A stretch of 10,279 nucleotides of DNA from Deltaproteobacteria bacterium (lineage in GTDB: Bacteria > Desulfobacterota > DSM-4660 > Desulfatiglandales > HGW-15). The position numbers and the translations under genes were made by a program. The notes under the pieces are model-generated. The model did no database searches. It saw only the letters and a list, made by a program, of their open reading frames with translations, and was not told where the DNA came from. This document shows, piece after piece, positions 10,029 through 10,279 of this stretch (within the stretch, counting starts at the first letter, position 1; each line of letters opens with the position of its first letter). The stretch is from NCBI GenBank assembly GCA_016932235.1, contig JAFGDF010000250.1, positions 1-10,279 of the forward strand, in the 5' to 3' direction.

Positions 10029-10279
10029 GTGTCAAAAGAGAAAATAGGCGCAGTGATGGTGGTAGGAGGCGGAATAACTGGAATGCAGGCGGCATTGGAT
10101 CTTGCGGACTCCGGTTACTACGTGTACCTGGTCGAAAGATCAAGTTCCATCGGGGGAATGATGTCTCAGCTGGACAAGACCTTTCCCACCAATGACTGTG
10201 CAATGTGAATTATCTCACCGAAACTGGTCGAGGTCGGCCGGCATATAAATATAGAACTTTTAACCCTGTCGGAAGTCAC
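10029..10279 (+). CDS. hdrA: selenocysteine-containing HdrA, N-terminal part (runs off the window)
   Basis: From the GTG at 10029 (AGAGG about 8 nt upstream) the frame reads a Rossmann FAD motif (GGGITG, 13-18), IGGMMSQLDKTFPTN, and then Cys57-Ala-Met-UGA at codon 60. Reading continues with conserved HdrA sequence (IISPKLVEVG) to the window edge, 83 codons in all. The UGA (10206-10208) aligns exactly with Cys64 of the tandem HdrA at 2625-5660 (NNCDLCTLSPHL), so it is best read as selenocysteine in a Cys-X2-Sec loop next to the flavin. Selenocysteine HdrA is known in methanogens and reported in sulfate reducers. A SECIS-like hairpin follows. Automated callers would miss the gene or start it after the UGA. 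The remaining roughly 550 or more residues lie outside. It completes a membrane-C/E, B, A operon. Confidence 0.9.
10206..10237 (+). promoter_or_regulatory. UGA selenocysteine codon with bacterial SECIS-like hairpin
   Basis: Downstream of the UGA, CCGA (10218-10221) pairs with TCGG (10234-10237). After a small internal loop, CT pairs with AG, leaving an apical loop GGTCG (10226-10230). The GGUC apical loop begins 17 nt after the UGA, close to the fdhF SECIS of E. coli, where a GGUC-type loop contacts SelB at a similar distance. The stem is short and was folded by eye. Confidence 0.65.

Follow-up and report, generated by a model that had tools for sequence, protein, structure and literature searches.

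The locus raises the question of whether an in-frame TGA near the start of an hdrA-like gene is a stop codon or is read as selenocysteine (Sec). The gene lies at the downstream edge of the window, the whole stretch of 10,279 nucleotides analysed here from a deltaproteobacterial assembly (contig JAFGDF010000250.1). Three features define the problem:

10017..10020, + strand: GAGG, a probable ribosome-binding site 8 nt before GTG 10029 (direct sequence reading).
10029..10279, + strand: 5' end of hdrA, 83 codons, running off the window (frame, NF040770 match, PDB alignment).
10206..10208, + strand: in-frame TGA at the position of the second CxxC cysteine, very probably decoded as selenocysteine (frame, alignment, relatives).

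This TGA is the sole stop between GTG 10029 and the window end at 10279, and the frame after it stays open over all 71 bases available. In the fragment, FPTNDCAMUIISPK comes after GGGITG, a Rossmann motif for FAD binding, and the peptide around the TGA (...LDKTFPTNDCAMUIISPKLVEVGRH...) is HdrA-like on either side. The NCBIfam model NF040770 matched residues 8-83 with an E value of 1e-32 and 113.2 bits; its whole-protein cut-off of 1100 bits is unreachable because only a fragment of hdrA is in the window. HdrA chains in the PDB also matched the fragment peptide, the best with an E value of 1.4e-29. These matches confirm the initial annotation, which had read HdrA before and after the TGA in the frame opened by GTG 10029, and the GTG aligned with the first Met of a homologue from a Desulfobacterales MAG (JAUYIZ010000372.1, locus L112). 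That the TGA occupies the place of the second CxxC cysteine, also proposed from the sequence at the outset, held as well: TGA 10206-10208 aligned with the second Cys of FPTxDCxxC in solved Cys-type HdrAs and with the TGT codon of the Cys-type paralogue in the same window. At the aligned position the HdrA chain 9sfi_A (also 9t1s) carries a non-standard residue X (FPTDDCAMXILAPKM), which is presumably selenocysteine.

The genes around this fragment place it in a recognizable setting:

9135..10025, + strand: hdrB, CCG-domain subunit directly upstream of hdrA, with two CCG domains.
7362..9128, + strand: membrane subunit with a NarI/QmoC-like region and two 4Fe-4S dicluster regions, of which the second resembles HdrC.
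2625..5660, - strand: Cys-type HdrA paralogue of 1011 aa, with the second Cys codon of CxxC at 5469-5471.

The membrane/HdrC fusion protein has 588 aa and is encoded on the same strand as hdrB and hdrA, the three genes being closely spaced. It scored 35.9 bits with PF02665 (NarI-like). An assignment as QmoC was considered and rejected, since the qmoC model gave 65.5 bits, far under its cut-off of 300. Flanked by hydrophobic stretches, residues 244-248 of the fusion form its single CXXCH motif, where a haem c may be covalently bound. The gene at 10029 is very probably the hdrA of a bacterial heterodisulfide-reductase-like membrane complex, probably of a member of the Desulfobacterota, made up of a cytochrome b/HdrC fusion, HdrB and HdrA. 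The loop of the Cys-type paralogue reads FPTNNCDLCTLSPH (FPTNNCDLC), its second Cys being encoded by TGT (minus strand, 5469-5471). This paralogue belongs to a divergent cluster on the minus strand (116-6662) that encodes a response regulator, MetF, MetV (PF12225), MvhD, the 1011-aa Cys-type HdrA and a second MetF, and that we take to resemble a methylene-THF reductase-Hdr complex. An Rfam search of the window gave no match and a tRNA scan of the window found none. When genome contigs were scanned with the single HdrB sequence, 41 stretches fitted the pattern and none was a relative.

How the codon behaves in other genomes was followed in three samples of relatives, which overlap in part because some genomes are shared. 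Each species was represented by one genome in a scan with a DNA pattern for FPTxDCxxU..PK, which returned at least 118 HdrA matches with TGA at the codon, in at least 115 loci. The chance expectation is well under one match (an estimate of about 0.1 in 257 Gb, for both strands and equal base frequencies). Among the 118 matches listed, the frame was open for at least 300 codons past the TGA in 72, ran off the fetched stretch in 40, and reached another stop within 300 codons in 6. For the class sample, a protein search of 117 genomes from a single class was made and loci were taken from the 30 best matches: the codon was TGA in 22, TGT or TGC in 8, and TAA or TAG in none, and in the 22 TGA loci the frame continued for about 940-980 codons past the TGA. 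TAA and TAG triplets within some HdrA matches were considered as further recoded stops and discarded; in the 30 loci they lie upstream of the start, and none falls at the Sec codon. The third sample was chosen through the fusion subunit, which was searched for in 395 genomes of the phylum; 46 had a match and 30 loci were fetched. The HdrA motif was not in view in 9 of these 30, and the other 21 loci held 22 HdrA copies, 17 with TGA, 5 with TGT or TGC and again none with TAA or TAG. Across these loci the codon alternates solely between UGA and Cys codons, as selenocysteine predicts.

All but one of these 22 copies lie downstream of the fusion gene on its strand (16 TGA, 5 Cys), the exception being a divergent TGA copy in locus L173. 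In that locus (genome G036), two TGA-containing HdrA starts on opposite strands, with their codons at 724 (-) and 4392 (+), flank the fusion gene, and both have 7/7 SECIS pairs. The same succession of fusion, HdrB and HdrA genes is found again in relatives such as L112, where HdrA runs for 953 codons past the TGA with no further stop inside the gene. The L112 protein consists of two HdrA-like halves, with CxxU in the first FAD domain only. In the list of open reading frames of at least 100 aa, this gene appears only as a 937-aa frame starting after the TGA, in line with the view of the initial annotation that such a gene is hidden from a standard gene caller. Hidden does not mean unknown, however, because Sec-HdrA is a family already catalogued.

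Insertion of Sec in bacteria depends on a SECIS element in the mRNA, and a candidate follows the TGA:

10224..10241, + strand: predicted bacterial SECIS hairpin with a 7-bp stem, CUGGUCG/CGGCCGG (folding, relatives).
10231..10234, + strand: predicted SECIS apical loop AGGU, with G in the second position (folding, relatives).

The hairpin CUGGUCG-AGGU-CGGCCGG has a minimum free energy (MFE) of -10.2 kcal/mol, and its loop begins 22 nt past the UGA. All 7 of 7 pairs are present and a GAG codon lies in the loop, the conserved loop G being the second base of AGGU. The initial annotation had described a SECIS-like hairpin with a GGUC loop at the expected distance; the hairpin and its distance (22 nt) stand, but the loop is AGGU. 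The bacterial SECIS model, as given in the excerpted text of PMC13188914, has a loop of 3-9 nt, an upper stem of 4-16 bp, a G in the first two loop positions, 16-37 nt from UGA to apical loop and an MFE of at most -7.5 kcal/mol. Every one of these constraints agrees with the window hairpin (loop 4, stem 7, AGGU, 22 nt, -10.2 kcal/mol). Under plain dinucleotide shuffling the hairpin was not unusual (z -0.82, with 35 of 200 shuffles equally good); this test alone is unimpressive, and the significance of the hairpin lies in the comparison with relatives.

Of the 137 TGA genes, 125 satisfied a loose SECIS criterion, and so did 62% of synonymous recodings and 7 of 11 Cys genes. Because it separates the groups so poorly, we relied on a pair-by-pair test, which was decisive. 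This covered the distinct TGA sequences with a KLVE..R-type peptide (94 of 137) and 10 of the 11 Cys genes; the remaining 43 TGA genes and one Cys gene, which lack such a peptide, were left out. All seven pairs were present in 76 of the 94 TGA genes, compared with 2.9 +/- 1.6 expected and a maximum of 10 in 500 recodings, under a null that keeps the same peptides, uses the genes' own downstream codon usage and ignores shared ancestry. None of the 10 Cys genes with a comparable peptide had 7/7 pairs. The loop-G codon was GAG in 94/94 TGA genes and in 2/10 Cys genes, against 42% in the downstream codons of the TGA genes. Synonymous (third-base) variation was zero at the two central hairpin codons, low over the hairpin and higher on both sides. 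The fusion-chosen sample gave the same picture, with 7/7 pairs in 17/17 TGA copies and in 0/5 Cys copies, which retained 4-6 pairs. Genes with TGA retain the SECIS hairpin, whereas in Cys genes it is eroded. This contrast with Cys genes among near-identical proteins is the best answer to the objection of shared ancestry.

Most of the 43 TGA genes excluded from the pair test belong to a second class: in 32 the predicted fold has a loop of 4 nt located 27 nt past the UGA, and 7 are without a qualifying hairpin. This second SECIS class was apparent in PTMDC-type HdrA (e.g. L019 and L065), where the apical loop lies 27 rather than 22 nt past the UGA. Counted over all 137 TGA genes, a loop at 27 nt had 4 nt in 43 and 5 nt in 6.

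The decoding machinery was then looked for in the genomes of relatives. Sixteen genomes have a TGA copy next to the fusion gene, and all of them had SelA (partial in G030), SelD, whose best match carried its own in-frame TGA in each case, and a strong tRNA-Sec of at least 69 bits. SelB was present in 14 of the 16; it was not found in G168 and G030, perhaps owing to incomplete assemblies. Among the loci from the pattern scan, SelB was over the cut-off in 10/11 genomes of a first mixed set and in 10/10 close relatives of the window. These ten close relatives and two Dehalococcoidales all had SelA over the cut-off (12/12), and 9 of the same 12 had tRNA-Sec over the cut-off. With 150 candidates scored per genome, no tRNA-Sec exceeded the cut-off in G014, G006 and G020, and G018 had only a weaker, selC*-like RNA. 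In one of the Dehalococcoidales (G011, the genome of L004), SelB was below the cut-off at L178 (3470-4784), where a C-terminal part is followed by a stretch of N; this gap may reflect masking rather than biology, and tRNA-Sec and SelA are present in G011. The presence of SelB was also tried as a discriminator between genomes with Sec-HdrA and Cys-HdrA and failed, as all 8 Cys-HdrA genomes tested have it. These lineages are therefore Sec users in any case, in which Sec and Cys replace each other at this codon. By analogy with its relatives, the window's own organism would be expected to carry the Sec genes.

Other readings of the TGA have to be set against these results. In one of them, a selC*-type tRNA-Cys(UCA), delivered by a second SelB (SelB*), would insert cysteine at the UGA. 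The excerpted text of PMC7609411 reports, for Syntrophobacterales and Desulfobacterales, selC* tRNA-Cys with GCA or UCA anticodons and an additional selB, and among the genomes studied here we found a second SelB next to an additional tRNA-Sec-like gene with a UCA anticodon in G015, G018, G022 and G075, and such pairs, judged by position, in G001, G440, G055, G112 and G134. Both G001 and G440 have a TGA copy next to the fusion and are among the 16 genomes described above. Nevertheless, a second, weaker tRNA-Sec-like RNA occurs in only 3 of these 16 (G001, G440 and G379) and adjoins a SelB in 2, the one in G379 not doing so, whereas all 16 have the strong tRNA-Sec, which argues against UGA as Cys. 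The hairpin letters of the G001, G440 and G379 copies are identical to those of the other copies. Nor does a second SelB track the TGA: in a set of 30 genomes, a second match was found in 2 of the 22 with TGA and in 3 of the 8 with Cys. Taken together, the 16/16 strong tRNA-Sec, the second weaker tRNA in 3 genomes and the 2/22 versus 3/8 distribution of the second SelB mean that the canonical Sec reading explains most TGA copies, and we regard decoding as cysteine in the window as very improbable. A slim chance remains for a mixed situation, in which the HdrA UGA of Desulfobacterota is served by both SelB/Sec-tRNA and SelB*/selC* tRNA-Cys(UCA) as a selenium/sulfur switch at translation. If true, two decoding systems would act in organisms that otherwise swap the codon along with the SECIS.

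The TGA could also be a true stop, whether in a decaying pseudogene, through a nonsense mutation or through a sequencing error of TGC or TGT. The window ends 71 bases past the TGA and the gene is seen for only 83 codons, with which decay farther downstream would be compatible. Against this, the same TGA recurs in at least 118 matches in other genomes, neither TAA nor TAG stands at the codon in the 30 class-sample loci or in the 22 fusion-sample copies, and the window hairpin is intact (7/7 pairs, GAG in the loop) whereas Cys relatives lose it. We therefore consider a true stop extremely unlikely. Least probable of all is a regulatory stop, by which a 59-aa product or pausing at the UGA would control the operon and full-length HdrA would be minor or selenium-dependent. 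A precedent for selenium control exists in Methanococcus maripaludis, whose Sec and Cys HdrA isoforms change with selenium supply according to the excerpt of PMC11097638, and the window does have a Cys-type HdrA paralogue, albeit in a different operon; the protein downstream of the codon is conserved in relatives, however, which indicates a full-length product.

Some of the selC*-like genes lie in settings of their own. A second SelB beside a second UCA tRNA-Sec-like gene was located in L179 (1908-3943, G015), L181 (1537-3582, G022) and L182 (1566-3649, G075). These SelB genes are near what we take to be a 2-hydroxyacyl-CoA dehydratase-like gene, presumably accompanied by an activator-like gene in L179 and L181, and such dehydratase-like neighbours are a possible lead to targets of selC*/SelB* decoding. 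In L180 (851-2890, G018), the second SelB and UCA tRNA adjoin Hdr-type iron-sulfur, Cys-type HdrA and MvhD-like genes, which were named by eye. In L183 (G016, the genome of L103, a Desulfarculus sp. MAG), a tRNA gene with the tRNA-Sec fold and the GCA anticodon of Cys occupies 1780-1872 on the plus strand; an mvhD-like gene (1333-1764) precedes it and a Cys-type hdrA (from 1932) follows it on the same strand. This tRNA resembles the selC* tRNA-Cys described in the excerpt of PMC7609411, and its location amid a cluster of mvhD and hdrA points to a possible connection with Hdr proteins.

We conclude that UGA 10206 of the window hdrA is decoded as selenocysteine in the HdrA of a membrane Hdr-like complex, with a probability of about 0.94. 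On this reading, SelB with GTP and Sec-tRNA-Sec would bind the predicted mRNA hairpin at 10224-10241, Sec would be delivered at codon 60 to give CxxU in the first FAD domain of HdrA, and translation would presumably continue through the UGA. HdrA would then act as the flavin subunit of a membrane-bound complex that links the quinone pool, on the side of the cytochrome b part, to iron-sulfur/flavin chemistry, and the selenol may aid electron transfer at the flavin end. On this putative electron path selenium may have an advantage over sulfur, and the tuned thiol/selenol chemistry beside the flavin put forward in the initial annotation is a hypothesis of the same kind. HdrA of methanogens takes part in flavin-based electron bifurcation. 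HdrA has also been predicted as the bifurcation site in the excerpted text of PMC5109826.

The locus would make selenium part of a membrane-bound Hdr-like complex in organisms that are probably sulfate reducers or syntrophs, and it allows the UGA, the hairpin and the Cys alternative to be compared in one gene neighbourhood across many genomes. The case is also a practical one for annotation, because a list of open reading frames made without Sec support starts the gene downstream of the TGA, so that the N-terminus with its FAD-binding motif is missed.

The window hdrA joins a type of selenoprotein that was known by 2006 at the latest, and reveals no new mechanism. As far as the excerpts of these papers go, 16 HdrA selenoproteins were described in Deltaproteobacteria and Clostridia in 2006, 7 of them in Syntrophobacter fumaroxidans (PMC1794560), Sec-HdrA is on record in Desulfobacterium autotrophicum (hdrA1/hdrA2, PMC2702500) and Desulfococcus multivorans (PMC5109826), and HdrA (NF040770) is tabulated as a CxxU selenoprotein (PMC13188914). 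The window gene shares with these deltaproteobacterial Sec-HdrAs the in-frame UGA in HdrA, and those bacteria carry sel genes (PMC1794560, PMC2702500, PMC5109826). Their Sec-hdrA lies, in the excerpts, beside frhA/frhD (mvhA/mvhD), whereas the partners in view in the window are the cytochrome b/HdrC fusion and HdrB. A literature search for Sec-HdrA together with QmoC in sulfate reducers found only PMC2702500, and we make no claim of priority for the operon. The HdrAU of Methanococcus and the Sec-HdrA of Asgard archaea belong to the same protein family as the window HdrA, M. maripaludis having an HdrAU/HdrA isoform pair (excerpt of PMC11097638). The archaeal SECIS is located in the 3'-UTR in the excerpts of PMC13188914 and PMC11227280, while the element in the window lies within the coding region and is of bacterial type. 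Like the window's complex, those of the Qmo, HdrDE and HdrF types combine a membrane cytochrome b-like part with HdrC/HdrB-type iron-sulfur modules, and HdrF of D. autotrophicum has transmembrane, HdrC and HdrB domains in one protein (excerpt of PMC2702500). Unlike these types, the window has the membrane part fused to HdrC, with HdrB and the putative selenoprotein HdrA as separate subunits.
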